A DNA stretch of 64,000 nucleotides from NCBI GenBank assembly GCA_026004795.1, contig BPJV01000006.1:186001-250000 (forward strand). The letters run 5' to 3'. Numbering within the stretch: position 1 is the first letter of the stretch; the number at the start of each line of letters is the position of its first letter. Positions 11,889-49,394 of the stretch are shown piece by piece. A program made the position numbers and the translations under genes. The DNA comes from Pirellulaceae bacterium (lineage in GTDB: Bacteria > Planctomycetota > Planctomycetia > Pirellulales > Pirellulaceae). The notes below the pieces were generated by a model. It made no database searches and was not told where the DNA came from. It saw only the letters and a list, made by a program, of their open reading frames with translations.

Positions 11889-16271
<4,383 letters not shown>

Positions 16272-16375
16272 GAACCGTGGCTCCTAAAGTGAACGGAATC
16301 GGGCGACAGGTCGTCCTCCTGCCGCCCCGGCAGGTGCAAATTAACGGCATCGGGATCGTTGCTGGCGATCGGTCC

Positions 16376-19300
16376 CTACAGCCTGCGTTTTTCCAGTCGC
16401 ATGTTCAATCCGAGACCGCGAATCTCGTTGGTTAACACGTCGAAGCTGGCAGGTGTCCCAGCCTCCAAGGTGTTTTCTCCCTTGACCATCGATTCGTAGA
16501 TCTTGGTGCGTCCTTCAACATCGTCGCTCTTGACGGTCAATAGTTCTTGCAAGATGTACGCCGCTCCGTACGCCTCCAAGGCCCACACCTCCATCTCGCC
16601 GAACCGTTGACCGCCGAATCGCGCCTTGCCACCCAACGGCTGCTGGGTGATGAGCGAGTACGGTCCCGTGCTCCGCGCGTGAACCTTGTCGTCGACCAGG
16701 TGGTGCAACTTGAGCATGTAGATGTAACCGACCGTCGTTTCCTGATCGAGCGGCTCACCGGTACGACCGTCGATCAAGCGGACTTTCCCATGCCGCGGCA
16801 ATCCGGCCTCCTCGAGACAATCGTTGATTTCATGTTCCTTCGCCCCGTCAAAAACAGGCGTGATGGCTTGGAACCCCAGTTTGGCGCCGGCCCACCCCAG
16901 GTGAGTCTCCAAAATCTGGCCAACGTTCATGCGACTGGGAACGCCGAGCGGGTTGAGCATGATCTGAAGCGGCGTGCCGTCAGGAAGATGCGGCATGTCG
17001 GCGATCGGCAACACCTTGGAGATCACCCCTTTGTTCCCGTGGCGACCTGCCATCTTGTCTCCCACACTGATCGTCCGTTTGGTGGCGATATAGACCTTGA
17101 CCATCTGCAGCACGCCGCTGCGCAGCTCATCCCCGCGCTTCATGCTGTTGAGCTTGCGGTCCCGCACGTCCAACGCCTCTTCGACGGCCGGCCACAACTG
17201 CTTGTAGACCTTCCGCACGTCCGCGTGAAACTTGGAATCCAGCTTGTTGATCAAGCGGGAGAGGTTGAACACCTGCGCCTGCTCGGCGATAAACCGCGGA
17301 TCTTGATCCGCAGTGACCGGCGTCCCCTCCTCGTCGACGAGCTTCTGCCCGGTCACCGCCTCCAACTCGGTGGCGAAAGCCAAGAAGGCCCGCGCAATCT
17401 CCGCATTCCCTTCCTGCTCGATCTCCTTGAGTTGCTTTTCGAAGGCCTTGCGTTCTTCGTCCGACAGGCTGGTACGACGGCTAAACCGCTGCGTATCGAT
17501 GACAATGCCCTCGATGCCCGACGGGACCTCCAGCGAATCGTTCTTCACGTCTTCGCCAGCACGTCCGAAAATCGCATGCAGCAATTTTTCCTCAGGAGTC
17601 AACTCGGTCTTGCTCTTCGGCGATACCTTTCCAACCAAGATATCCCCTGGGCGGACATAGGTTCCCACGCGGACGATACCATTTTCATCCAGGTTGCGCA
17701 GCGCTTTCTCGGAAACATTGGGAATGTCGCGCGTGAACTCTTCCCGGCCGAGCTTGGTCTCCCGAATCTCCACGTCGAAGTCTTCAATATGAATCGACGT
17801 GTAGGTATCCGACCGCACCAACTCCTCGCTGATAATGATTGCGTCCTCGAAATTGTAACCGTCGAAGGACATGAAGCCGACCAGGACGTTGCGCCCCAAG
17901 GCAAGCTCGCCCTGATAGGTCGCCGCCCCATCGGCGATGATCTGCCCTTTCTCGACCTTATCTCCGACGCGCACGATGGGCTTTTGGTTTTGGCAAGTCC
18001 GTTCGTTAAGCCCATGGTACTTTTGCAAATGGTAAACGTCGGTTACCCCGCGTTCGGTAACCTCGATCCGCGCCGCGTCGCAGTAAGTCACCTTACCGGA
18101 CCGTCGGGCGCGCACCACCATGGAACTGTTCTTGGCGACCTCTCGCTCCATGCCCGTGGCCACGATCGGCGGCTCGGCCACCAACAGCGGCACCGCTTGA
18201 CGCTGCATGTTCGAGCCCATCAAGGCCCGGTTGGCGTCGTCGTGCTCCAAGAACGGGATCAGGCTGGCCGACACACCAACCATTTGACTCGGCGCGACAT
18301 CCATGTATTGCACCTGATCCGGCTGAACGATCTGGAAGTCCGCTCGGTAACGAGCAATAAGATTCGGGCCGGGAACCAACGCCCCGTCCTTCACCTCCGT
18401 ATCGGCTGGACAGATGTAGGCGTCCGCCTCCTGGTCCGCACGCAGCCACTCGATCTGGTCGGTCAATTTACCATTCTTGACCACCCGGTACGGCGTTACC
18501 AAGAACCCGTACTCATCGACCCCGGCATAGATGGCCAACGAGCTGATCAAGCCAATGTTCGTACCTTCCGGCGTCTCGATCGGGCAAATACGACCGTAGT
18601 GCGAAATATGCACGTCGCGCACATCGAAGCCAGCTCGCTTGCGGTTCAACCCACCGGGCCCCAAGGCACTCAGACGCCGCTCGTGAGTCAACTGGCTGAG
18701 CGGGTTCGTCTGGTCGACGACCTGAGAGAGCTCGCCACGACCGAAGAAGTAGTCGATCGCCGCGGTAATACTCTTCGGATTGATCAGATTCCGAGGCGTC
18801 ATCTCATCCGCCTCTTTCATGTTCATCCGCTCCTGAACCGTCCGACGCAGCTTGAGAAAGCCTTTACGCAATTCTTCGCAAGCCAACTCGTCGATCGTGC
18901 GCAAACGGCGATTGCCCAAGTGGTCGATATCGTCGTACTCTGCATGCGGCTCTTCTGCAAACAAGTCCATCATGTACTTGACGATGGCGATGAAATCCTG
19001 CGGCCGCAACGCATTTTCTTCCTCGGGGGTGTCCAACCCGAGTTTGCGATTCAAGCGAAAACGCCCCACACGCCCCAAACGATACCGCGAATCATCATAA
19101 AATTTCTCATGAAACAGCGCCCGCGCCTTTTCCAGATTCAACGGATTCCCCGGACGCAATCGCTGGTAAATCCGCAACAGCGCTTCTTCATGACTGTTAG
19201 TCGGATCTTCCGCCAAGGCATTGATAAGCAAGGGAGTTCGTGGCGGATCCATCACCCGCACACTCTGCACCCCCGACGTGCAGATCAATTCCGCCAAATC

Positions 19301-37788: not shown

Positions 37789-37831
37789 GGCTTAACCGCT
37801 AATTCTGGCCTAGGCCGCGCGCAGCGAGTTG

Positions 37832-38455
37832 ATGCAAGCCATGCGGCGTGGTGAAGTGACCGACGAGCTTCGTGAGAGCGTCGAATCGGCCCAGCGTCGC
37901 GAGCAATCGGTCCTGCAGTCACTCCTACGGCCGCCACAGGTCGAGCGATTGAGACAACGGTTGGGAGCCCCTTTCGACACATCCAAACTGCAACGAATCT
38001 ATCCGATGGCTCCCGAACTGGTCGATTCGGGGCATTGGATCAACACTTCGCCGCTCACCATGCGATCGCTCCGAGGAAAAATCGTTTTGGTGCACTTCTA
38101 CGCGTTTCAATGCCACAACTGCCACGCGAATTTTCCCATCTACAAACGCTGGCACTCTCGTTACCACTCGTCGGGTGACGTCGTCGTATTGGGCATTCAG
38201 ACACCGGAAACGTCCGCCGAAGCCGATCCGGCCCGCGTTCGCCAGGCTGCCCAGGAAGAGGGCATCGAGTTTCCGGTGCTGATCGACCTGGACAAGAAGA
38301 ACTGGCAGGCCTGGGGCAACACGATGTGGCCGACCGTCTACGTAGTCGACCAGGACGGCTACATCCGTCTGTGGTGGCAAGGCGAACTCAATTGGCAGGG
38401 CGCCACCGGCGACCAGACCATCGAGCAACTGATCGATAGCCTCCTCCGCCATTAG
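37832..38455 (+). CDS. Thioredoxin-fold (TlpA/AhpC-like) protein, possibly 5'-truncated
   Basis: A 207-aa protein whose residues about 60-207 form a TlpA/ResA-like domain: LRGKIVLVHFYAFQCHNCHANFP with the redox pair CHNC, then GIQTPETSAEADPARV, FPVLIDLDKKNWQAWGNTMWPTVYVVDQDG. TlpA relatives are exported thiol-disulfide reductases, but here no signal peptide or membrane anchor is found. The first 55 residues are charged and helical, as though cut from the middle of a longer protein, and a stop codon lies shortly upstream. It reads away from rpsM at the edge of the accessory island. It may be intact and cytoplasmic or a 5'-truncated copy. Confidence 0.75.
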   Translation: MQAMRRGEVTDELRESVESAQRREQSVLQSLLRPPQVERLRQRLGAPFDTSKLQRIYPMAPELVDSGHWINTSPLTMRSLRGKIVLVHFYAFQCHNCHANFPIYKRWHSRYHSSGDVVVLGIQTPETSAEADPARVRQAAQEEGIEFPVLIDLDKKNWQAWGNTMWPTVYVVDQDGYIRLWWQGELNWQGATGDQTIEQLIDSLLRH

Positions 38456-38541: not shown

Positions 38542-41337
38542 TTACGGTGGCGGGAGATGGAGTTTGAACGCCAGTTCGCTTGCGGCCTGTGCGGGGAATG
38601 GGATACGATCGGCCAGTTTTTCCGTAGTTTGAAGGTCGATCTTGTAATCCTCCCCCATGACGACGTTGAACCACCGCTCGCGATCCATTACCACGCGATA
38701 CATCTTTTCGTCTTGCGTTTGGGCGATGAAGGGGAGGTAGAGCTGGATCGGTTGTTGGGCAAGCTCCGCTTTGGCTCCGATGCGGTCGATACGCCCGCTT
38801 CGTTGTTCAAGTGTGCTCGGATTCCAGCATAAGTCGTGGTGAATCATGTAACGACAGTTCAAATGCAAATCGACTCCCTCGGCCATCACGCTGCTGGCAA
38901 TCAGGACCTCGGGATAAAACGGCGTGTTGAAGGTCAACATGAGTCGCTGTCGAGTCTCGGGGTGCGTTGCCCCGTTGATCAGTCGCACGTTGGGCAACAA
39001 TTGCTCGGGCCTGGCGTCTTGCAGCTCGTCGTCGGTAAACACCGCCGTTGCGTCTCGCCCCAGGTGGGTACCGGTCTGTATGCGCTTGACGGCGTCGATA
39101 TATCGACGCCGTTCCTCTTCCCCGCAACGATCTGCCAGGAACCTGAGAAACTGACTCAGGGTTTCCTTCAACGTCAGGCCGGACAAGTCGGGAGTCTCCC
39201 ACGCATGGCGGATCGCTTCCGCATCGAGCTTGCCACGATTGAGCGGAAAGAACCGGACCAGAAACGACGGCGTGCGGACGTTGCGGCGAACGACCTCCAC
39301 CAGATCCTGCCGCCATTCTTCTAACGACGGAAACTGGCAGATCAGACGATTGGATTCCTCATCACAGGTTCGGCGAATTGGCGAATCCTGATCGAAGAAT
39401 CGCTTACCGATTCCTTCCAGCTCGGCTGCCACTTGATTTTCCGGCAGACTCAACTTTTCCGCGCCCAGACGCAGGATTTCCGTACGAATCGCCTGGGAAA
39501 TCAACTGCCGCAAGACGCGACTGGTTGCAACGTAATGACAGAAGACAACCACCTTTTCGCGTCGTCGCCAGATATCGACCACTCGTTGGACGGTAGCAGC
39601 GACTTTCGGGTGACTACCTCCGCCACTTTCCCCCTTCGGCAGGAGCGCTTCGAGGTGATCGAGGTACCACTGCAATTCCTCGTCGACTTCGACCGGTTGA
39701 GTGTCCTCATCATCTTCGTCGGTCGCCTGTGCGCCACCGGTAGCGCGGGTGTGCAGAAAGGCTTCGAAACTGGAGGCCAGGCCTTCGGCGAAGACCGGTC
39801 GCGAATCGGGGTGATGTGAAGTGGCTCGGGCCGCCAGCAGGAAAGGCAGCAGCGACTGGCCTTCCACTGGGATGCCCTGTTGATCGGTGTCGTCTTGATT
39901 GCCAAGGATGGCTCGGCCCACCAGACGCCGCCGACGGTCGATGTTGGCATGAGCCCCCGGCAGGTGCTTGGGTTTCAGGTGTCGAATTACCCACCTGCGC
40001 AGCATTTGTTCGGCCTCCGCCATGCGCTCTTTGGTCCGCGCGTAACAGCGCATTACATCGGCGGCGGCGTGGGTGAGCTGGCCGCCCTGGCGAGCCGTGG
40101 ACCACCACTGTTCGTCGTGGTCATACAAAACACCGTCGACCTGCAAGTCGCCGCTCGTCAATCGTCCCCAGGCGTGATCCAGCGTCACCGCCGCTTCCTG
40201 CGCTGCATCGAGGGCCTCGCGCAGGGCTTTGCGCTCGATCGAGAATTCGTCGCGGTCCATTCGCGGTGCTCGCACACCGGTCCATCGAATACCGTCGAAT
40301 CGATCGATGATCGAACACAGCTCGTGGTGTCCCAGTTGAAACGGAGTGGCCGTCAGAAACAGCATGCGTTCGAACGCGCCGGCCAGAGGACCTCGAGCGA
40401 ATTGCTCCGCGTCCTCCAACGCTTCCTCCGAGCGGAACAACGAAGCCAACCGAGTTTTCGGATTCTTCAAATGATGCGCTTCATCCAGGATCAGCAGAGG
40501 CAGCCGCAGACGGGTTCGCGCTAGGCACTCCTCCCACAGCGCCCTGGTCGCGTCCTTGATCACGTAGCGGGCGTGGTTCAGGTACATGTCGTAGTTGTCC
40601 GACCACCGCCGCGGAATCTGTTGCACGGCTTCGAAGACCAGGTCCGTATCGAGGCCGGGTAGGGCGTCGATAACCGGTTTAGGTACCGGATCATCGTCCG
40701 CTAATCCAATTGGCTCGAGAATCTTCAACCACTTGTCCGGATTGGTCTCGAGCAATTTGCGCCAGATGTCGGGATCATGTTTCTCGACCCATTTCATACT
40801 CAAAAGGTTTCCCAAGGACCGATGCAGGGCGCGGCGAAGTGTGGCGATGCCTCGCTTGCGGTAGAGACTCTGGCGGATCAGAGCCAACATGACCCATCGA
40901 TCGTTCAGCCCACGGCTCATCGCACCATGCGTCATGAAAATGAGCGAGTTTCGGCGACTGGGAGGATCGTCGACCATTTTGAGGAACTCGACCGCTCGAT
41001 CCGCCGTGCTCCATCGAATGCGTCGAGAAACAGACGGCGGCAAACACTTCTCGCAAAAGAGCGAAAAGTCCGCACACCACTTTTCCTTCAACGCAGGCGG
41101 TGTCATCACCACGACCGGATGCTTGCCGCGATTATTCAAGGCGACTGAGACTGCGACGGCCAGGGCCACGAAAGTCTTGCCCATGCCAACTTCGTCCGCC
41201 AGAATTACGCCCGGCTGGTCGGCCATCCGTCGAAGAATCTCCTGCGCCGTCCGCTGTTGACGCGCAGCATCCTCAGCCGAAATCCGCGCTTTCACGTACA
41301 GATCGATGTCATCGCAAAACGGATACAGCATGCTCAT
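38542..41337 (-). CDS. SNF2/RapA-like superfamily 2 helicase (candidate defence operon, gene 4)
   Basis: 931-aa DEAD/H-type ATPase. Walker A is DEVGMGKTF (residues 48-56), motif II is LILDEAHHLKNP (near 283), motif III FLTATPFQLG (near 335), and the C-terminal RecA domain has YEVLIASSVMAEGVDLH-like text (PEVLIASSVMAEGVDL) and motif VI RSGRIDRIG (near 850). The arrangement matches RapA/SNF2 enzymes that move along duplex DNA rather than simple unwinding helicases. No methyltransferase or nuclease domain is fused. Its start overlaps the 189-aa gene's stop (ATGA), so it is translated last in a tight four-gene operon with a PLD-like protein. SNF2-type proteins beside PLD nucleases occur in DISARM, but the other DISARM genes are absent. 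Role in phage defence is inference. Confidence 0.88.
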   Translation of the reverse strand: MSMLYPFCDDIDLYVKARISAEDAARQQRTAQEILRRMADQPGVILADEVGMGKTFVALAVAVSVALNNRGKHPVVVMTPPALKEKWCADFSLFCEKCLPPSVSRRIRWSTADRAVEFLKMVDDPPSRRNSLIFMTHGAMSRGLNDRWVMLALIRQSLYRKRGIATLRRALHRSLGNLLSMKWVEKHDPDIWRKLLETNPDKWLKILEPIGLADDDPVPKPVIDALPGLDTDLVFEAVQQIPRRWSDNYDMYLNHARYVIKDATRALWEECLARTRLRLPLLILDEAHHLKNPKTRLASLFRSEEALEDAEQFARGPLAGAFERMLFLTATPFQLGHHELCSIIDRFDGIRWTGVRAPRMDRDEFSIERKALREALDAAQEAAVTLDHAWGRLTSGDLQVDGVLYDHDEQWWSTARQGGQLTHAAADVMRCYARTKERMAEAEQMLRRWVIRHLKPKHLPGAHANIDRRRRLVGRAILGNQDDTDQQGIPVEGQSLLPFLLAARATSHHPDSRPVFAEGLASSFEAFLHTRATGGAQATDEDDEDTQPVEVDEELQWYLDHLEALLPKGESGGGSHPKVAATVQRVVDIWRRREKVVVFCHYVATSRVLRQLISQAIRTEILRLGAEKLSLPENQVAAELEGIGKRFFDQDSPIRRTCDEESNRLICQFPSLEEWRQDLVEVVRRNVRTPSFLVRFFPLNRGKLDAEAIRHAWETPDLSGLTLKETLSQFLRFLADRCGEEERRRYIDAVKRIQTGTHLGRDATAVFTDDELQDARPEQLLPNVRLINGATHPETRQRLMLTFNTPFYPEVLIASSVMAEGVDLHLNCRYMIHHDLCWNPSTLEQRSGRIDRIGAKAELAQQPIQLYLPFIAQTQDEKMYRVVMDRERWFNVVMGEDYKIDLQTTEKLADRIPFPAQAASELAFKLHLPPP

Positions 41338-41903
41338 GTCGCCACGGCGTCGAACACAGATTCCACATACACCCGCAGATTCTCCGGTGCATTTGATCCC
41401 AACGCAGGCACCAATCGGCGCAGCTCAGCAATAACCTGGCGGATTTCCTGCAGGTGCACAGCAGGGGGCACGCAACCCTCCTTTGCTTCCACACGTGCAC
41501 GGGACAGCTCGAGGACCAGTTCGGCAATCAAAAACGCTTGCTCTTCATCCGAACGGGACTCTCGGATGAGCGCTTCGGCCAGGGCGGTAACGCCAACCGG
41601 TCCCCGCAACCGCCATCGCAAGCACTCGAGCGTGGCCACCGGTCGTTCCAATCGCTTGCGCAAGGCGCCAAGTGCCCAGGAAATGCGCCGCGTTCGCTGC
41701 AGCAGAAACTGGCTGGTATCGACACGTTGGTGGGGATCAATGGACGGTCCCTCCGATTCGAGCTTGCCAGACCGCTCAAAGCGACGCAAGTAATCGTGCA
41801 TGACTCGATGCAATGGGCGTGCCGAACTGAGGATCGCGATCAGCAAATCCAACGGCAGTTGCTTCAGTTCGTCGGGCGCCGGCAACACTTCTGCCTTTGC
41901 CAC
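41334..41903 (-). CDS. Unknown 189-aa protein (candidate defence operon, gene 3)
   Basis: I do not recognise the family. The protein is predicted largely helical and rich in Leu, Arg and Glu, with no membrane segment or signal peptide. Notable segments are LPLDLLIAILSSARPLHRVMHDYLRRF near the N-terminus and EEQAFLIAELVLELSRARVEAKEG in the second half. The start is GTG at 41903, nine bases after the PLD-like gene's stop; the stop overlaps the helicase start (ATGA). Such coupling with a helicase suggests a partner or loading subunit made in matched amounts. It could also be a small regulatory protein. No cysteine/histidine metal cluster is seen. Confidence 0.7.
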   Translation of the reverse strand: MAKAEVLPAPDELKQLPLDLLIAILSSARPLHRVMHDYLRRFERSGKLESEGPSIDPHQRVDTSQFLLQRTRRISWALGALRKRLERPVATLECLRWRLRGPVGVTALAEALIRESRSDEEQAFLIAELVLELSRARVEAKEGCVPPAVHLQEIRQVIAELRRLVPALGSNAPENLRVYVESVFDAVAT

Positions 41904-41912
41904 GTTGATCGG

Positions 41913-43400
41913 TCACCAGGCAGCCCCTTCCGCTCCATTCCATCGCACCCACAAACCGGCCGGCGGACGTTCCTCGCGCCAAGGAATATCGCACTGCTCA
42001 GGTGAACCCTGCGCCGTCCATTCCGGCTCACCCCACAATCGCTGTTCGTCTGCATCCGTAAATAACTCCCATCCGGCCGGAGGGGGGCCAGCGAAAGTCA
42101 AACGTAGAGTCGGCTGATGCTGCTCGTCACAGTCGAAAATCGCCTCGCCAAAGCTCGGTGGCAACAGCACGGTGTCGACTGGAGCTTCATCTTCGGCTGG
42201 CAATGGCAACCACCTCACGTCCAAGTCCAGGTCGACCGGCTCGCTTTCCGGGAAGCTCTCCACCAGTTCCTCCCAGGCTTCCGCGGCGCGGTACGAATCG
42301 ACCAGGTAGACGAGGTTGGCCTCCAGGTTTGGATGCGCGCTGAGTCCCGTTCCAGCGCTGGTGAAATTGCTTGATCCGATCGAGTACATGCCCCACCGAT
42401 CGCATTCCAGCAGGATGCCTTTCGCGTGCAACGGGCGACCGCCCGGCAGGACGACTCGATAGAAATCGGTCGTGGCACCGGGACGTCCTGGCGGCTGAGC
42501 GAGCAACAGCGATTTGGGGGCGTGCAACAGTATGCCCTTTCCCTCAGGCAAATCCTCGCCGGAAACATGGAAATGCACCGCCGCGTCACCCCGTTGGCGG
42601 ATCAGTTGCCACAATTCGCGCGCCGGAGCATTGTCGGCCGCTGGCCGATCGAAGAACGGACTTACGACGCTGGCGACGTCAGGCGGAGAAGCGCTCGGCC
42701 AAGATTCGCGCAGTCCTTCGAACGCCGTCGGGCGATCTGGGCCGGTGAACAGGGTGCGGACGCGCAGCCCACGCCGCCGCGCCTGCGCATCCAAAACTCC
42801 CCAGTGTTTGCATTCGTTCATGACGCGATTCAACAGCGCGTTCCAACGGTTCACGGCCGGGTTGCTAATGCCGTCCGTTGAAGCGTACGTGGCGCATTCC
42901 TGTAGGAACCCGACCGTCTCGGTCAAGCAAGATACCGGCACGTCGCTATCGGGGTGAAAATCGAGAACTCCGAACACCTCCAGGTTCTTGCGATAGGCAT
43001 CTTCGGTCAGATTGGCCGAGGAGATGATCAGCCGCGCCAGATTGGTCCAGTAGAGCAAACAGACCTTGGCATGCAATAATCCGCGCCGCAACCGCGCCGA
43101 CAGCAGATCCCAGCGCAGGTTGCGCGTGCCCTGACAATGGTGCTGATCCACCAGGACGGCCGCGCAAGAGAGTTGAGCCATCTTCTCTTCGCGTTCGTAA
43201 AGATAGACCGGTCCATCCTCGATCGGATCGGACTCGAGCCCGAGGAACCTGGCCAGGCACTCCTCTTCGAAGAAAGCGGGGGTGAACGTGAAACTGGTGG
43301 CGACGACTCCCACCGGATCGCCCGCCCAATCGGGAGCCACCCAAGCGTCCAGCAGTTTGCCGCGCGCGGCGCTTTCGTCTGTCCGCTTCCTCTTGCCCAT
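41913..43400 (-). CDS. Phospholipase D-like nuclease family protein (candidate defence operon, gene 2)
   Basis: 495 aa with two PLD-type half sites. The first: LLHAKVCLLYW near residue 109, followed by LIISSANLTEDAYRKN. The second: PLHAKGILLE near residue 322, followed by YSIGSSNFTSAGTG. Each has the H-x-K pair and the S-S-x-N element; the Asp of the classic HKD motif is Tyr in the first and Glu in the second, as in many nuclease-like PLD proteins. The N-terminal part (about 30-105) precedes the first site and a long linker joins the halves. Gene order places it directly after the 440-aa gene (3-base gap) and before the 189-aa gene. In defence systems such as DISARM, dpd and Mokosh a PLD-like protein works with a helicase; the same is inferred here. 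Confidence 0.82.
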   Translation of the reverse strand: MGKRKRTDESAARGKLLDAWVAPDWAGDPVGVVATSFTFTPAFFEEECLARFLGLESDPIEDGPVYLYEREEKMAQLSCAAVLVDQHHCQGTRNLRWDLLSARLRRGLLHAKVCLLYWTNLARLIISSANLTEDAYRKNLEVFGVLDFHPDSDVPVSCLTETVGFLQECATYASTDGISNPAVNRWNALLNRVMNECKHWGVLDAQARRRGLRVRTLFTGPDRPTAFEGLRESWPSASPPDVASVVSPFFDRPAADNAPARELWQLIRQRGDAAVHFHVSGEDLPEGKGILLHAPKSLLLAQPPGRPGATTDFYRVVLPGGRPLHAKGILLECDRWGMYSIGSSNFTSAGTGLSAHPNLEANLVYLVDSYRAAEAWEELVESFPESEPVDLDLDVRWLPLPAEDEAPVDTVLLPPSFGEAIFDCDEQHQPTLRLTFAGPPPAGWELFTDADEQRLWGEPEWTAQGSPEQCDIPWREERPPAGLWVRWNGAEGAAW

Positions 43401-43403
43401 GAC

Positions 43404-44726
43404 CTATCCCCCTAACCTGAGATCGCGAGCGAAGGACGACAGGGCTCTAGTACGGTAAGCATGCACGTACGCGTCGTCATTTCGGCCTCCGTGTTCGGTG
43501 ACATACGCCGTCCGAATCATGCACGTTCCATCGTCAAAGCGGTCGAACCAAGGGGCTTTTCCGGCCGGCGCTTTGGCGTTCTGAACGCGACGGTGGTGTT
43601 GGAGCAGTCTTTCGACCCAATCGTCCACGGGTACCTGTTGGGCCAGGCCGGCAAATGTATCTTCAAAACGAACCGTCTGGTCGAACGGGGAAAGCAGCTC
43701 GGCGACATCGGCAAACATGCGAGGAACCGCCCTGGCAGCCCGCCGGACTCCGGGTAGGCGGGTGAATTCCTCAGGCGCAACGCGCCGCCGGTTCTGGGAC
43801 ATGCAAAACAGGCAATCGTCGAACGCATCCTGCAGCAACCGGCAGAACCGCTCGTAGGTATCGATCGCACGAAGCAGTTCTTTCAGTTGCGGGCTGGCCC
43901 TGGACATGATCCACTCGTGAAATCGTCGTTCGGAAAACGACCGCTGCTGCACTTCGCCCCACCATGTCTTCCAGCCTTCCGGATGAACCAATCCACGCAA
44001 TAGCTCGCCGCGAAACCCGCTCGCATCATTCAGCAGCGCTCGAGAAATTATCCGCGATTCCTGTGCTCCGACGTCGTAGATGTCCAAATGGTCACTTAAA
44101 AAATTCCAGCCCGTCCAGCCGTCGCGGCGAGCAACGGCTCCAGCGGCCAGCCCATCCTTGATGGCCTCGATCATCTGTCGCCGAATCCGATTCCCCTCGC
44201 CATCACCCGAACTGATGAAACCGTCCAGTCCCTGCTCTTTCTCCCACGTTGTCAACAGATCGTATCCGACTTGACCCAACCGCCCGGCAACTTCGATGCC
44301 GATGTCGCGAGCCAAAGTGCGATAGACGCCATGGAAACCGAAGACGTTGGGTGCCTTGAGATAGCGGCTGCGCGACAGCGGCACTCCGTCACGAACCGCC
44401 CGCGTGGCCTTGTCCTGTCCTGGCAAACCGCGCAACCGCTGCCGATCGGTCGTCGTGCGCACCAGACCCTCTACCAGATACCATTCGAACACTTGCCAAG
44501 GCTCACTGACGCCGTCGGCCGCGACCGTCTCTTCATCGAAATCACGGCACAGCCAGAGGGAAACCGCGATTGCGGTGAGGAACCGCGGATGCATCTGCCG
44601 TTCGCGCACTCCGGGCACCAGCCGCACCGCCAGAGCATCGGCGATTGAATACATGCCCAGCGGATCGATCGACCCTTCCGCTGAAACTCGCGGATCCGCG
44701 TCCGACAACTTCGGTAATCGCAACAC
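43404..44726 (-). CDS. Unknown 440-aa protein (candidate defence operon, gene 1)
   Basis: Soluble protein with no catalytic motif that I recognise. The N-terminal half reads DPLGMYSIADALAVRLVPGV then HPRFLTAIAVSLWLC, and near residue 125 comes KAPNVFGFHGVYRTLARDIGI. The order of these elements recalls DUF6361 proteins, which also occur beside helicases, but this is a resemblance from memory only. The middle part is acidic and helical. The last 60 residues contain WFDRFDDGTCMIRTAYV and a basic end. GTG at 44726 is the likely start; no good ribosome binding site is visible. It is the first gene of the operon; its stop lies 3 bases before the PLD-like gene. It may act as sensor or DNA-binding specificity factor. 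Confidence 0.75.
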   Translation of the reverse strand: MLRLPKLSDADPRVSAEGSIDPLGMYSIADALAVRLVPGVRERQMHPRFLTAIAVSLWLCRDFDEETVAADGVSEPWQVFEWYLVEGLVRTTTDRQRLRGLPGQDKATRAVRDGVPLSRSRYLKAPNVFGFHGVYRTLARDIGIEVAGRLGQVGYDLLTTWEKEQGLDGFISSGDGEGNRIRRQMIEAIKDGLAAGAVARRDGWTGWNFLSDHLDIYDVGAQESRIISRALLNDASGFRGELLRGLVHPEGWKTWWGEVQQRSFSERRFHEWIMSRASPQLKELLRAIDTYERFCRLLQDAFDDCLFCMSQNRRRVAPEEFTRLPGVRRAARAVPRMFADVAELLSPFDQTVRFEDTFAGLAQQVPVDDWVERLLQHHRRVQNAKAPAGKAPWFDRFDDGTCMIRTAYVTEHGGRNDDAYVHAYRTRALSSFARDLRLGG

Positions 44727-45622: not shown

Positions 45623-46189
45623 TTGGCGGCCAACGTGCCCGTGTTAGCTGAGGCCTCGATTGCCGACGCGAAGGTGCGGATGTTTCGATCGGGCGAGTCG
45701 GAAACGCAAGTCACCGACCTGGCCGGGCAGGTCGCGTTCGCTGTCGGTTCCGGCACGTGGCAAGTCGCCATTAGTGCACGCGGGTTTCAGAACCTACTGA
45801 GCACCCTGATTGTCAACGGTGACCAGACGCCTGTGTTCAACTTGATGCCGATAGCCGTCAGTCCGCCCGCCGGGCCCGACCTGTGCGTCGTGCAAGCGTT
45901 CGTTTATCAAAACGGCGACCCGGTTTCCGGTGCCATCGTTAAAGCACGCTTGCGGGACGCCAATTCCACTATTCCCGCCGCCGTATTGTCGACTCAATGC
46001 CTCGAAGCGACCACCGATTCCAACGGCTACGCCGAACTCCAGCTCGTCCGCCAACCATCATTCACCTCTGGCCTCGGCATCTACATCATCGACATCTGGC
46101 ACACCTCTCGCCGCATCCTCTCCCTCGAAACCCCCATCCCCAACCAATCCACGGCGACTCTCGACCAATTGATCTCTCTCCAGTCATGA
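45623..46189 (+). CDS. Hypothetical beta-rich protein, probably 5'-truncated
   Basis: A 188-aa frame with two repeats of a regulatory-domain-like beta-sandwich: VPVLAEASIADAKVRMFRSGE ... DLAGQVAFAVGSGTWQVAISARG, and QAFVYQNGDPVSGAIVKARL ... DSNGYAELQLVRQ. This resembles carboxypeptidase-regulatory or Cna-B modules. The frame is open only from about 45593, after a TGA; the best initiator is TTG at 45623 with no ribosome binding site, and the coding look continues up to that stop. The gene is therefore likely a fragment of a longer one. Its last 17 codons are repeated at 47887-47940, on the far side of the AbiE pair. Confidence 0.55.
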   Translation: MAANVPVLAEASIADAKVRMFRSGESETQVTDLAGQVAFAVGSGTWQVAISARGFQNLLSTLIVNGDQTPVFNLMPIAVSPPAGPDLCVVQAFVYQNGDPVSGAIVKARLRDANSTIPAAVLSTQCLEATTDSNGYAELQLVRQPSFTSGLGIYIIDIWHTSRRILSLETPIPNQSTATLDQLISLQS

Positions 46190-46329: not shown

Positions 46330-46959
46330 ATGGCAAAACCGAAAGACGAATCTCGAGAACGAAGAGCGATCGCCGCGGCGCTGGAGGCGTTTCGTGCGGC
46401 CGGGGGACTGCTGCGCACGCGGGACGCTCTGAATGCCGGGATTCATCCCCGAACGCTTTACGAACTGCGGGACGAAGGGCGGATCGAGCAACTGAGTCGG
46501 GGCCTGTTTCGGCTGGCTGACGCTCCGCCACTGGGGGAACCGGACCTCGTCACGGTCGCGATCCGAATCCCGGACGGAGTGCTGTGCCTGATCTCGGCAC
46601 TTGCCTGGCACAAGCTGACAACGCAGATTCCCCACGAAATCTACGTCGCCATTCCGCGCAACGCGGAAGCGCCGCGGATAGACTACCCACCCGTGCGGCA
46701 CTTTTGGTTCAGCGGCGACGCGTACTCTTCCGGGATCGAGGTCCACACGGTCGATGACGTCAAGCTCCGCGTCTACAGTCGCGAAAAGACGCTGGCGGAC
46801 TGCTTCAAATACCGGAACCGGATTGGTCTCGACACGGCACTGGAAGCGCTGAAGGCCTACCGACGATCGGGTGCCGTGAACGTGGAAAGCCTGATGCATT
46901 TCGCGGACATCTGCCGCGTCAAACGCGTCATGACTCCGTATCTGGAGGCGGTGCTTTGA
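46330..46959 (+). CDS. abiEi: AbiEi-family antitoxin / transcriptional regulator
   Basis: 209 aa, the antitoxin of a type IV toxin-antitoxin pair. The N-terminal winged helix-turn-helix shows AIAAALEAFRAAGGLLRTRDAL, HPRTLYELRDEGRIEQLSRGLFRL; the C-terminal domain has DVKLRVYSREKTLADCFKYR and ends MTPYLEAVL, as in AbiEi_1-type proteins. It represses its own operon through inverted repeats and counteracts the toxin indirectly, not by tight complex formation, in studied cases. The start ATG at 46330 directly follows the inverted repeat, with no ribosome binding site. Its stop overlaps the toxin start by four bases (TTGA). Confidence 0.93.
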   Translation: MAKPKDESRERRAIAAALEAFRAAGGLLRTRDALNAGIHPRTLYELRDEGRIEQLSRGLFRLADAPPLGEPDLVTVAIRIPDGVLCLISALAWHKLTTQIPHEIYVAIPRNAEAPRIDYPPVRHFWFSGDAYSSGIEVHTVDDVKLRVYSREKTLADCFKYRNRIGLDTALEALKAYRRSGAVNVESLMHFADICRVKRVMTPYLEAVL

Positions 46960-47879
46960 CGGACCACCCCCGCCGTAACGTCGCTGCCTCGGTTCGCCAG
47001 CGGCTGATGAACGCCGCAAAAGCCAGCGGACGCCCGTTCCAGGAAGTTCTGCAGTACTATGCGATGGAACGGTTTCTCTATCGCCTGTCGCAATCGCCTC
47101 ACAGGGATCGATTCATTCTGAAAGGCGCGTTGATGTTCAACATCTGGGGGGCACTTGCTTCGCGCCCGACCAGGGACATCGATTTGCTGGCCCACATGAA
47201 CAACGATGTCGATGCTATCGTGCCGGTGATGCGTGACATCTGCCGGCAGGAGGTCGAGCCGGATGGTCTGACGTTCGATGTGGACAGTGTGACGGGAGAG
47301 GTCATCAAGGAGGAGGCTGACTACTCCGGGGTTCGCGTCACGTTTCTGGGATTCCTGCAGAACGCGCGCATCGCGATGCAAACCGATATCGGGTTCGGCG
47401 ATGTCGTCGAACCAGCCGCCCACCTGACGGACTATCCAACGATTCTGGAACTGGCCGGGCCGCGACTGCGAGCCTACCCCAGAGAAACGGTGGTCGCGGA
47501 GAAGTACCAAGCGATGGTCAAGCTCGGTCAACTGAACAGCCGGATGAAGGACTTTTTTGATCTCTGGATGCTCTCACGGCAATTCGCATTTGACGGTCCA
47601 TCGCTGGCCAAGGCAGTGTCTCGCACGTTCGCCAATCGGCACACGAAGATGAATCCGAATCCAGTCGCATTTACACTGGAGTTCGCTGGGGATACCGTGA
47701 AGCAGACTCAATGGCGAGGCTTTTTGCGAAAGTCAAGACTTGAGATTGCTCCGTCTGATCTGGTCGAAGCCATCACATCGATTCGCGAATTCCTGGTACC
47801 GCTAACCGAGGCCCTCGTAGCGGGCCAGCCCTTCGACATGCACTGGGAACCGCCCGGACCCTGGAGGGCAAGACCTTGA
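46956..47879 (+). CDS. abiEii: AbiEii-family nucleotidyltransferase toxin
   Basis: 307-aa DNA-polymerase-beta-fold nucleotidyltransferase toxin. Motifs: FILKGALMFNIWG (K56-G57), then RPTRDIDLLAH with catalytic D74 and D76, a downstream VRVTFLGFLQNARIAMQTDIGFGD holding the third acid, and RAYPRETVVAEKYQAMVKLG with KDFFDLWML, the typical C-terminal signature. Family members transfer nucleotides onto tRNA acceptor ends and block growth, giving abortive phage infection. The start is TTG at 46956, overlapping the antitoxin stop. It ends seven bases before the right copy of the flanking direct repeat. Confidence 0.93.
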   Translation: MTDHPRRNVAASVRQRLMNAAKASGRPFQEVLQYYAMERFLYRLSQSPHRDRFILKGALMFNIWGALASRPTRDIDLLAHMNNDVDAIVPVMRDICRQEVEPDGLTFDVDSVTGEVIKEEADYSGVRVTFLGFLQNARIAMQTDIGFGDVVEPAAHLTDYPTILELAGPRLRAYPRETVVAEKYQAMVKLGQLNSRMKDFFDLWMLSRQFAFDGPSLAKAVSRTFANRHTKMNPNPVAFTLEFAGDTVKQTQWRGFLRKSRLEIAPSDLVEAITSIREFLVPLTEALVAGQPFDMHWEPPGPWRARP

Positions 47880-48058: not shown

Positions 48059-48223
48059 CTATTCGCTCTTCGGTTTGGGCGGCGGTGGTGGTGGCGGTGG
48101 TGGCGTCTTTTTCGGAGGAGGATTCCAACCTCCATGCTTGTGCGTTTGCTGTCCTGTCTTGTCCGTCTTCTCGGGCCGAAACGGCCGCGAAGATGAGTCG
48201 TCCTTAGCTTTCACTGTCTTCAT
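48059..48223 (-). CDS. Small proline-rich protein overlapping the DUF6338-type gene
   Basis: A 54-aa ORF on the minus strand: begins MKTVKAKDDSSSRPFRPEKT, ends with PPPKKTPPPPPPPPPKPKSE. Its ATG lies 20 bases inside the end of the DUF6338-type frame (48204), a typical coupled overlap. It is basic, lacks hydrophobic segments and looks disordered. From memory, small downstream partner ORFs with Pro-rich or disordered ends do accompany DUF6338 genes, but I cannot confirm that. The nine-proline run comes from a GGTGGC-like repeat in the DNA, so its length may vary. Confidence 0.5.
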   Translation of the reverse strand: MKTVKAKDDSSSRPFRPEKTDKTGQQTHKHGGWNPPPKKTPPPPPPPPPKPKSE

Positions 48224-48829
48224 TTTCACTTCTTCCGGGTAAGAACTCCACAAAACGGATCTCCTCGCCGGGCACCAACAGCAACGGACATGCATGTAGA
48301 TCCAATTCTTCTTCCTCTTGTTTGTCGTCGGCGAGCCACCGGGCATCGCGGAGCGCGACGTGTCCACCTGCTTGTCTAGACGAGTAGCCGCGGACTGCCC
48401 CCATGATTCTTCGACCATCCTGTAAGTGAATAACGGCATACTCGCGGTCCTCCATCCAAGCTGTGCGAAATGTTGTATCCCAATCGAAGGCCAAGGCGGC
48501 TGGCTGGAAATCCCGAACTTCTGCAGCCATTCAAAGGTTTTTCCGCTATTGCTGAGCTTCGCAATCAGGAGGCCCACCACTAGCGCGGACAAGGACAACC
48601 CAACTAAATCGGGAGTCGGAAGCCAAGACCACCGGGTAAGCATCCACCACAAAGCGTGAACCAACAGGGTGTATCCAAGCGCGTGCAAGACTGCTTCAAC
48701 CGTCTCAAGTGGACGTTCGCGGTTTGTTAGCGCATGCACTACGACATACGTCAAGAAGCCCGGAAGGAGGGCAAACAGGAGACCATTGGCCTCGAGTTCG
48801 TTCACGTCAGGAATGGTGACACGAGGCAT
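48204..48829 (-). pseudogene. DUF6338-type membrane protein gene with a frameshift
   Basis: The N-terminal part starts at ATG 48829 (MPRVTIPDVNELEANGLLF) and has the family's first helix LLFALLPGFLTYVVVHALT and two further hydrophobic helices (about residues 45-65 and 70-90). Around 48480-48500 the reading frame must shift to continue into FDWDTTFRTAWMED, then YAVIHLQDGRRIMGAVRGYSS, HVALRDARWL and GEEIRFVEFLPG, the DUF6338 C-terminal pattern, ending at 48204. Without the shift the first frame runs on as non-family sequence. So this is a broken gene, a sequence error or, less likely, a programmed frameshift. DUF6338 function is unknown. A small ORF overlaps its end, and an RHS remnant lies directly upstream. 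Confidence 0.65.
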
Positions 48830-48836
48830 TTCGCAC

Positions 48837-49394
48837 ACGACGCAGTACCTGTACGACAACAACCTGGCCGACGGCCAGGGGTTGGACAACGCGGGCGGCA
48901 TCGCGCCACCGCTGGGCGGGTCGGCGATCAACTTGACCGCCGCCCTGGCGAAACTGGCCGATCCGGTCGGCGATGGCAGCCTGTCGATCCAGTTCGACGC
49001 TACGGCCCCCGGCTCGGCCTCGGTGGTCATCAACGCGGCGGGCGAAGCCTCGTTCACCATCGCCGATGCGGCCGGACGGACGGTGATGAGCGGCCAGATC
49101 GATGGCAGCAACAGCCTGCTTGCCTGGTCGTGCCAGGTGTACGACGGGGTAGAAACGATCGCCGGTCTGGGTGATGTGCTGGTGACCCGCAACGTCGATG
49201 CCGCCGGCGGCGTGACCCGATCGCTGACCGACGGCGCCGGGCGGACGATCCAGTCGATCGACGCCTTGGGCCAGGTGACTCAATTCACCTACGACGCGGC
49301 CGGCAACCAACTGTCGGTCCGCGATCCGAACAACGTGGGCCAAGACGTGGTGTACGACGAACTGGGCCGAGCTGGCCTGACCACCGAGGCCTAG
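48837..49394 (+). pseudogene. RHS/YD-repeat protein fragment
   Basis: About 185 codons of an RHS-type protein: begins TTQYLYDNNLADGQGLDNAGG, ends with repeat text ... SIDALGQVTQFTYDAAGNQ, DVVYDELGR and a stop (GLTTEA). There is no start codon or signal at its left end, and intact RHS proteins are far longer, so it is an internal remnant. The frame is intact throughout, suggesting a fairly recent deletion. RHS proteins carry polymorphic toxin ends in other bacteria; here neither the N-terminus nor a toxin tip is present. It lies between the divergent DUF6338-type gene and the convergent adk. Confidence 0.75.

Follow-up and report, generated by a model that had tools for sequence, protein, structure and literature searches.

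A candidate Azaca-like defence operon of three genes, with a SNF2-type ATPase and a PLD-family nuclease gene interrupted by a stop codon, in a Pirellulaceae bacterium

The window analyzed here is a stretch of 64,000 nucleotides from a Pirellulaceae bacterium (contig BPJV01000006.1, positions 186,001 to 250,000), and its minus strand carries a compact operon that joins a nuclease of the phospholipase D (PLD) family to a SNF2/RapA-like ATPase. The operon consists of three genes, A, B and D, and appeared as four through a stop codon that splits B. With a probability of about 0.66, A-B-D is an Azaca-type system of three genes directed against phages (or plasmids), belonging to a lineage without a name in the libraries searched (PADLOC-DB 2.0.0, NCBIfam 20.0 and Pfam). 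On the evidence of protein similarity and gene order, it is probably an Azaca-like sister lineage of SNF2 and PLD DNA-targeting defence, distantly related to Azaca itself.

A preliminary description of this DNA had proposed a four-gene operon with gaps of 3, 9 and -4 bases. Four minus-strand open reading frames (ORFs) with exactly these gaps are present, of 440, 495, 189 and 931 amino acids in order of transcription, and the label C is kept here for the 189-residue ORF and D for that of 931 residues. The number of genes did not stand. The 495- and 189-residue ORFs share one frame (43400-41903 = 1497 = 3 x 499) with one TGA between them, and 495 + 1 + 3 + 189 residues make 688, exactly as long as the uninterrupted protein of the closest relative. 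In nine of nine relatives, B and C form a single ORF of 687-718 residues (longest start), and the junction is open in 46 of the 47 evaluable loci of a genome-wide scan, the locus L025 being the sole exception. The 189-residue sequence was matched in seven of 294 genomes of the phylum, its own included; in the other six it lies inside open frames of 700-1373 residues, and none of them holds a standalone 189-residue protein. Since the frame runs open through the stop position in all nine relatives and in all but one of the evaluable scan loci, the 'unknown' 189-residue protein represents the C-terminal domain of the PLD protein, and a separate fourth protein was rejected. An apparent four-gene novel system can be a three-gene operon with an interruption, which is a caution for similar descriptions.

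The set is conserved outside this genome. Ten of 147 related genomes, counting the window's own, encode protein A, and in each of the nine others A, B, C and D follow one another in this order on a single strand. The scan, which used an alignment of ten A sequences (A1) and covered one genome per species in 84,980 species, gave 51 loci, a lower bound because it relies on peptide patterns; at least seven of the nine relatives are also among them. A-B-D were all found in the same order and strand in 46 of the 51 loci, so that the co-occurrence across unrelated genomes about which the preliminary description had asked was borne out. D was not found in five loci, of which L055, L059 and L063 reach contig ends, L064 has a B that ends early near a contig end and L074 holds a fragment of A only. 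As named in record titles, the 51 loci span eleven phyla: Planctomycetota, Nitrospira/Nitrospirae, Chloroflexi, Verrucomicrobia, Acidobacteria, members of Bacteroidota, Proteobacteria, Ignavibacteriota, Lentisphaerae, Hydrogenedentes and Sumerlaeota. For alignments, 35 of the 51 loci were used, with the window added for A and D; the other 16 were excluded because they are truncated, broken or nearly the same as the window (L025, L032, L036, L038, L040, L046, L047, L054, L055, L059, L061, L063, L064, L065, L074 and L075). In a tree of 36 A proteins with nine phylum labels (5 rows unlabelled), the labels are mixed yet partly clustered, with 14 changes against a minimum of 8 and a shuffled mean of 17.2, and 0 of 200 shuffles as low as 14; the tree has several long branches and its details are unsure.

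The catalytic residues are kept throughout. SNF2 proteins are ATP-driven translocases on double-stranded DNA, and PLD-family nucleases use two HxK half-sites and a covalent histidine intermediate. The half-sites of B (H110-x-K112, N130, E141 and H325-x-K327, N345, E360) are invariant across all 36 rows, window included. In D, the Walker A motif reads GMGKT in 35 of 36 rows and GTGKT in one, and DEAH and TATP are present in all 36; GMGKT starts at residue 51, and its lysine is K54, as first proposed. Pfam cut-offs were passed by the 495-residue ORF with PLDc_2 and by the 931-residue ORF with SNF2-rel_dom and Helicase_C; the first account was right in describing a tightly packed operon with a SNF2 and a two-site PLD protein. 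Among the intact B proteins, 21 of 35 match the Pfam PLD domain of the NgoFVII restriction enzyme (best 6.7e-5). The 440- and 189-residue ORFs were both said to lack a family, and neither has a Pfam match; the statement holds less well in that A is weakly ZacA/DUF6361-like at its N-terminus and the 189 residues belong to B. Searches of solved structures by sequence gave only two implausible matches for A (best 0.0088), one for B (7clg 'putative helicase', 2e-4 over one PLD half-site) and none for a ZacA and a ZacB.

Azaca is ascribed a PLD-like domain in a table citing Millman et al. 2022 (in PMC10952713), and a list of helicase systems includes 'Azaca (ZacC)' (in PMC12278908); the PADLOC models ZacA, ZacB and ZacC were taken as the Azaca proteins on the strength of these entries. 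A passage of a 2026 review gives the mechanism of Azaca as unknown (PMC12926258). Of 392 genomes of the phylum, 14 contain ZacA at E <= 0.001, ten at <=1e-80 and three only near 1e-5, and that search gave no ZacA in the genome of the window. Twelve ZacA regions were examined, and nine of them (L091-L098, L102) have second and third genes in Azaca order; their ZacB and ZacC sets were assigned from gene position and from similarity to the profiles of B and D, without use of the PADLOC models. The gene order of A-B-D in the 46 loci equals that of these nine regions. All 35 intact B proteins match PADLOC ZacB at E <= 0.01 (best 8.3e-18). In local HHalign comparisons, A-ZacA scored 70% (residues 17-161), B-ZacB 97% (14-364) and D-ZacC 98% (730-937), with mismatched pairs at about 0.1%; in global mode, B-ZacB reached 98.6% and D-ZacC 99.8%. 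A ZacA from L094 is a DUF6361 protein (1.2e-46), and PADLOC ZacA matches only 1 of 36 A proteins at E <= 0.01. A protein of L100 links A with ZacA, since it matches both the A profile (1.2e-18) and ZacA (7.5e-6). Proteins of the same phylum resemble A and ZacA to differing degrees (L100:6548-7804, L101:7167-10327, L099:7301-7603); in L101 a ZacA-like protein precedes a PLD protein (ZacB 2.6e-19) and two unknown ORFs, an arrangement that may be a third Azaca-type branch.

Across its loci the operon often lies beside defence genes; for the window, the preliminary description had pointed to a defence-island setting from the AbiE pair, which starts 1.6 kb from the operon on the opposite strand. 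The nearest ORF of >=150 residues on each side was collected in 43 loci, giving 72 ORFs, or 71 without D's own half in L065, and compared with a control set of 72 ORFs, taken by seeded shuffle out of 182 that lay in 20 arbitrarily chosen stretches from 10 genomes in the same phylum as the window. At E <= 1e-25 the flanking ORFs matched 71 PADLOC families and the control ORFs 4, a contrast that overstates the enrichment, since families and not ORFs are tallied and one helicase can match many models; the control taxa are also narrower than the flank taxa. Among the matches listed (25 of 71), the flank families include Dsr2 (0), PDC-S37 (0), PDC-S41 (4.7e-290), a type IV restriction enzyme (2.7e-263), Hhe (2.8e-262) and DrmD (3.7e-199); the control families are three RtcR models and one type II restriction enzyme. 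Of the neighbours searched individually, three were picked via D search matches and ten by size and recurrence. They include DrmD in L060 and L045 (3.7e-199; 1.5e-279), DpdE in L046 (9.8e-183), Dsr2/DSR2 in L058 (E 0), a DruE-like helicase in L035 (8.1e-106), GajB-like or UvrD helicases in L035, L057 and L070, Mokosh-like helicases in L033 and L045, and a WYL regulator in L050.

No neighbour recurs as a fixed partner. When up to four ORFs per side were clustered over 45 loci (blastp, 1e-6), the largest cluster, which holds known helicases, covered 12 loci, one of them being L065 with D's own downstream half, and every other cluster covered at most 4 of 45, so that no non-helicase family exceeded 4 of 45. 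A methyltransferase is therefore unlikely as a standard part; most flanking ORFs in this recurrence test had no individual annotation, and diverged families could escape blastp clusters. Two loci have large helicase genes directly before A-B-D: L035 (2059-10010) a 1946-residue DruE-like ORF and a 704-residue GajB-like UvrD helicase, and L057 (2640-9903) a 1717-residue ORF of the same blastp cluster and a 702-residue GajB-like UvrD helicase. The UvrD gene of L035 overlaps A by 10 bases, and a larger joint operon may thus exist.

Table 1. Features of the operon and its surroundings (positions in the window)
Feature	Position	Strand	Basis
Gene A, 440 residues; putative adaptor or sensor, weak N-terminal similarity to ZacA / DUF6361	43404..44726	-	ORF, PADLOC, HHalign
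Gene B, one PLD-family nuclease gene with an in-frame stop inside	41334..43400	-	single ORF in relatives
Gene B, N-terminal part, 495 residues, two HxK...N...E PLD half-sites (residues 110-141, 325-360)	41913..43400	-	PLDc_2 3.8e-7; ZacB 4.4e-11
In-frame TGA stop interrupting gene B	41913..41915	-	sequence; same stop in L025
Gene B, C-terminal domain, 189 residues counted from an internal GTG; no known family	41334..41903	-	Pfam, PADLOC, NCBIfam
Gene D, 931-residue SNF2/RapA-like ATPase, motifs kept	38542..41337	-	Pfam, PADLOC, NCBIfam
AhpC/TSA-family gene, adjoining the operon	37829-38455	+	Pfam
Weak carboxypeptidase-regulatory-like (CarboxypepD_reg-like) match, adjoining the operon	45623-46189	+	Pfam
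AbiEi/AbiEii pair	46330-47879	+	PADLOC AbiEi E 5.6e-75, AbiEii 1.6e-110

Further out on the D side lie genes that, from their translations, we take to be rpoA and ribosomal protein genes. Predicted promoters came to 3 sites against 2.2 expected, and terminators to 10 against 7.2 expected. Beyond the AbiE pair, at 48182-49152, the window is without five single bases that are present in L025, all within about 1 kb under the ORF 48059-49192; there are no other single-base gaps between the two in 11.6 kb, and a local assembly error or a decaying gene may be the cause.

Taken together with the activities of their families, the three proteins suggest a working model. D would translocate on invading double-stranded DNA in an ATP-driven search, the two complete half-sites of B would form one active centre and cut that DNA, and A may recognize the target or bind B and D and so license cutting. 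As no methyltransferase is an apparent standard neighbour, self DNA would probably be spared through recognition of a DNA state or structure, and not through a methyl mark set by the locus. In the genome of the window, the stop parts the PLD part of B from its conserved C-terminal domain, and the system may be impaired there or B made as two chains.

The stop recurs in L025 (BPJP01000026.1, Gemmatales bacterium KatS3mg105), which shares 99.94% identity with the window along 11,602 bases and differs by 2 substitutions and 5 single-base gaps, all away from the stop. An assembly error at this position is less likely, since L025 carries the stop too; the two assemblies may share reads. Impairment of the window copy is the most likely effect. 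That a split B works, by readthrough of the stop or by reinitiation at an in-frame GTG as a two-chain variant, is less likely and would be compatible with an Azaca-type system. Both PLD half-sites remain on the first, 495-residue chain, the GTG lies nine bases downstream of the stop, the 189-residue ORF keeps its 4-base overlap with the beginning of D, and the identical stop in a second assembly points the same way. The C-terminal part of B is also conserved like the remainder of the operon: dN/dS, the ratio of nonsynonymous to synonymous substitution rates, is 0.127 for A, 0.154 for the N-terminal part of B, 0.165 for C and 0.081 for D against L026, with dS of 1.2-1.7; these values give no date for the stop, and dS against L037 and L027 is mostly saturated. 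With dS above 1.2, however, the constraint mostly predates the stop, and among the 47 evaluable loci the stop occurs only in the genome of the window and its near-identical relative. Moreover, frames of A, B or D are broken in other loci too (L038, L040, L046, L061, L065, L075), mostly metagenome assemblies in which some breaks may be errors. In L065, gene D holds an insert of about 1.77 kb (14969-16735) between residues ~505 and 519.

Other origins for the whole operon were weighed as well. An accessory module that lends its nuclease to Druantia/ARMADA-like, DISARM-like or other systems would explain why A follows a GajB-like UvrD helicase in L035 and L057, with the DruE-like helicase before the overlapping UvrD gene in L035, and why DrmD (L060, L045) and DpdE (L046) lie nearby. 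This is improbable, as there is no single recurrent partner and the neighbours come from many unrelated systems, as in defence islands. Equally improbable is an undescribed system separate from Azaca, with a novel C-terminal domain in B, its own SNF2 clade, a new adaptor family and a spread over eleven phyla, in which the two-chain nuclease also works in the window's species. A housekeeping operon for DNA repair or transcription coupling, with D like RapA and B like a Tyr-DNA phosphodiesterase, would fit the best solved relatives of D by sequence, which are RapA structures (E 1e-18), and the weak Tyr-DNA_phospho matches of 14 of 35 intact B proteins (best 5.9e-5); a patchy spread, in 10 of 147 relatives and at least 51 loci in 84,980 species, and the defence-gene neighbours make it quite improbable. 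The least probable origin is divergence from DISARM or Dpd with loss of the modification genes. In NCBIfam, D does match DrmD (1e-33) and DpdE (1.8e-25), and B matches DrmC (3e-8), but all fall far under the curated cut-offs, with 116.8 of 610, 89.1 of 500 and 33.5 of 133 bits, respectively; D also groups apart from DrmD/DpdE, and strong DrmD genes stand separately near the operon in L060 and L045. Such a descent is very improbable, and membership in DISARM and in Dpd was rejected on these scores, in line with the distinction drawn in the preliminary description.

Several observations weigh against an Azaca-type defence system. The operon copy in the window is itself interrupted, A had no match in plasmids, phages or viral contigs, and part of the spread of A is vertical, as its phylum labels are more clustered than shuffled ones. 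Two of ten picked flanking proteins (L034, L028) had no PADLOC match at 1e-10. The link between A and ZacA drops to 7% in HHalign global mode and is 56% with another aligner setting. In favour of the link, that second setting gave 87% with the bridging L100 added and 88% for the N-terminal parts alone, against 0.2-1.2% for controls with a reversed profile or mismatched halves. A similarity of the C-terminus of A to that of ZacA, suspected by eye, was not supported (0.2%, HHalign), and the C-terminal domain of B has no match to that of ZacB (0.4%, HHalign). The PADLOC scores of D in the window are higher for PDC-M27C and DrmD than for ZacC, and a helicase tree of 24 rows keeps D (13), ZacC (7) and DrmD/DpdE (3) apart; D is set off from the rest by a branch with 83/65 support that occurs in 94% of bootstrap trees. 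The tree has long branches, and the remaining row is the L057 downstream ORF on a very long branch.

Comparison with known systems places the operon beside several of them. No operon protein reached the NCBIfam cut-off of any named system. DISARM shares the combination of a PLD protein and a SNF2 helicase; the window operon differs in that its three genes are bounded on the opposite strand by genes of other families, AhpC/TSA and CarboxypepD_reg-like, with no methyltransferase, DrmA or DrmB in it. For Mokosh, the 12 PADLOC matches of B and the top 25 of 40 for D include no Mko model. The PADLOC candidate PDC-M27 (genes A-B-C) matches 7 of 36 A proteins (best 1.3e-4), 27 of 35 B proteins (best 4.7e-8) and D of the window (6.3e-37), all weakly. 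In the window these are 16.6 bits for A (residues 352-428), 16 bits for B and 125.4 bits for D in two stretches (best 792-877), scores too weak or partial for membership. Convincing PDC-M27A proteins were absent from three genome sets (0/294, 0/229 and 2 weak of 198), which leaves no real members to compare. In BREX-related type 2 systems, as described in PMC12839542, an HKD nuclease is usually fused to a Swi2/Snf2 helicase and an N6-methyltransferase is included; by that description, the pair of activities is the same and the nuclease and helicase are separate genes here. The main-text passages of PMC12839542 and PMC12458937 that treat BREX-related, ARMADA, BRIGADE and TALON systems do not describe the operon. 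A literature search gave nothing on DUF6361 and, among the titles listed, only unrelated ones for ZacA/ZacB/ZacC/PDC-M27; within this literature, most subscription papers being outside its scope, and in the three libraries, the lineage has no name. The lineage is probably commoner than annotation suggests, since Pfam and NCBIfam yield no more than generic domains or scores below threshold and the PADLOC matches are weak or partial.

The closest likeness is to Azaca. Both have three genes, arranged alike, for a first protein similar to DUF6361 (here in its N-terminal part only), a PLD protein and an SF2 helicase. The differences are that A is unrecognized by DUF6361 (0 of 36 members), that the C-terminal domain of B is unlike that of ZacB, and that D is shorter than the third proteins of Azaca loci and belongs to a separate helicase group. 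The claim of an undescribed system in the preliminary description holds in part: in the libraries searched no named system was matched by all genes, and the helicases stand apart, but the order and kinds of protein are those of Azaca. Judged by its anatomy the operon would work like Azaca, yet it is not filed here as an Azaca member. Such a sister lineage displays what appears constant in the Azaca type: two full half-sites in the PLD nuclease, an ATPase of the SNF2 type, and an N-terminal motif shared by the first proteins. These shared constants narrow the mechanism to test, and uninterrupted loci are available for it in named isolates: Pseudoxanthomonas sp. Root630, Dyella sp. C11, Pontibacter sp. 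HSC-14F20, Rhodopirellula europaea 6C and Rubripirellula obstinata.

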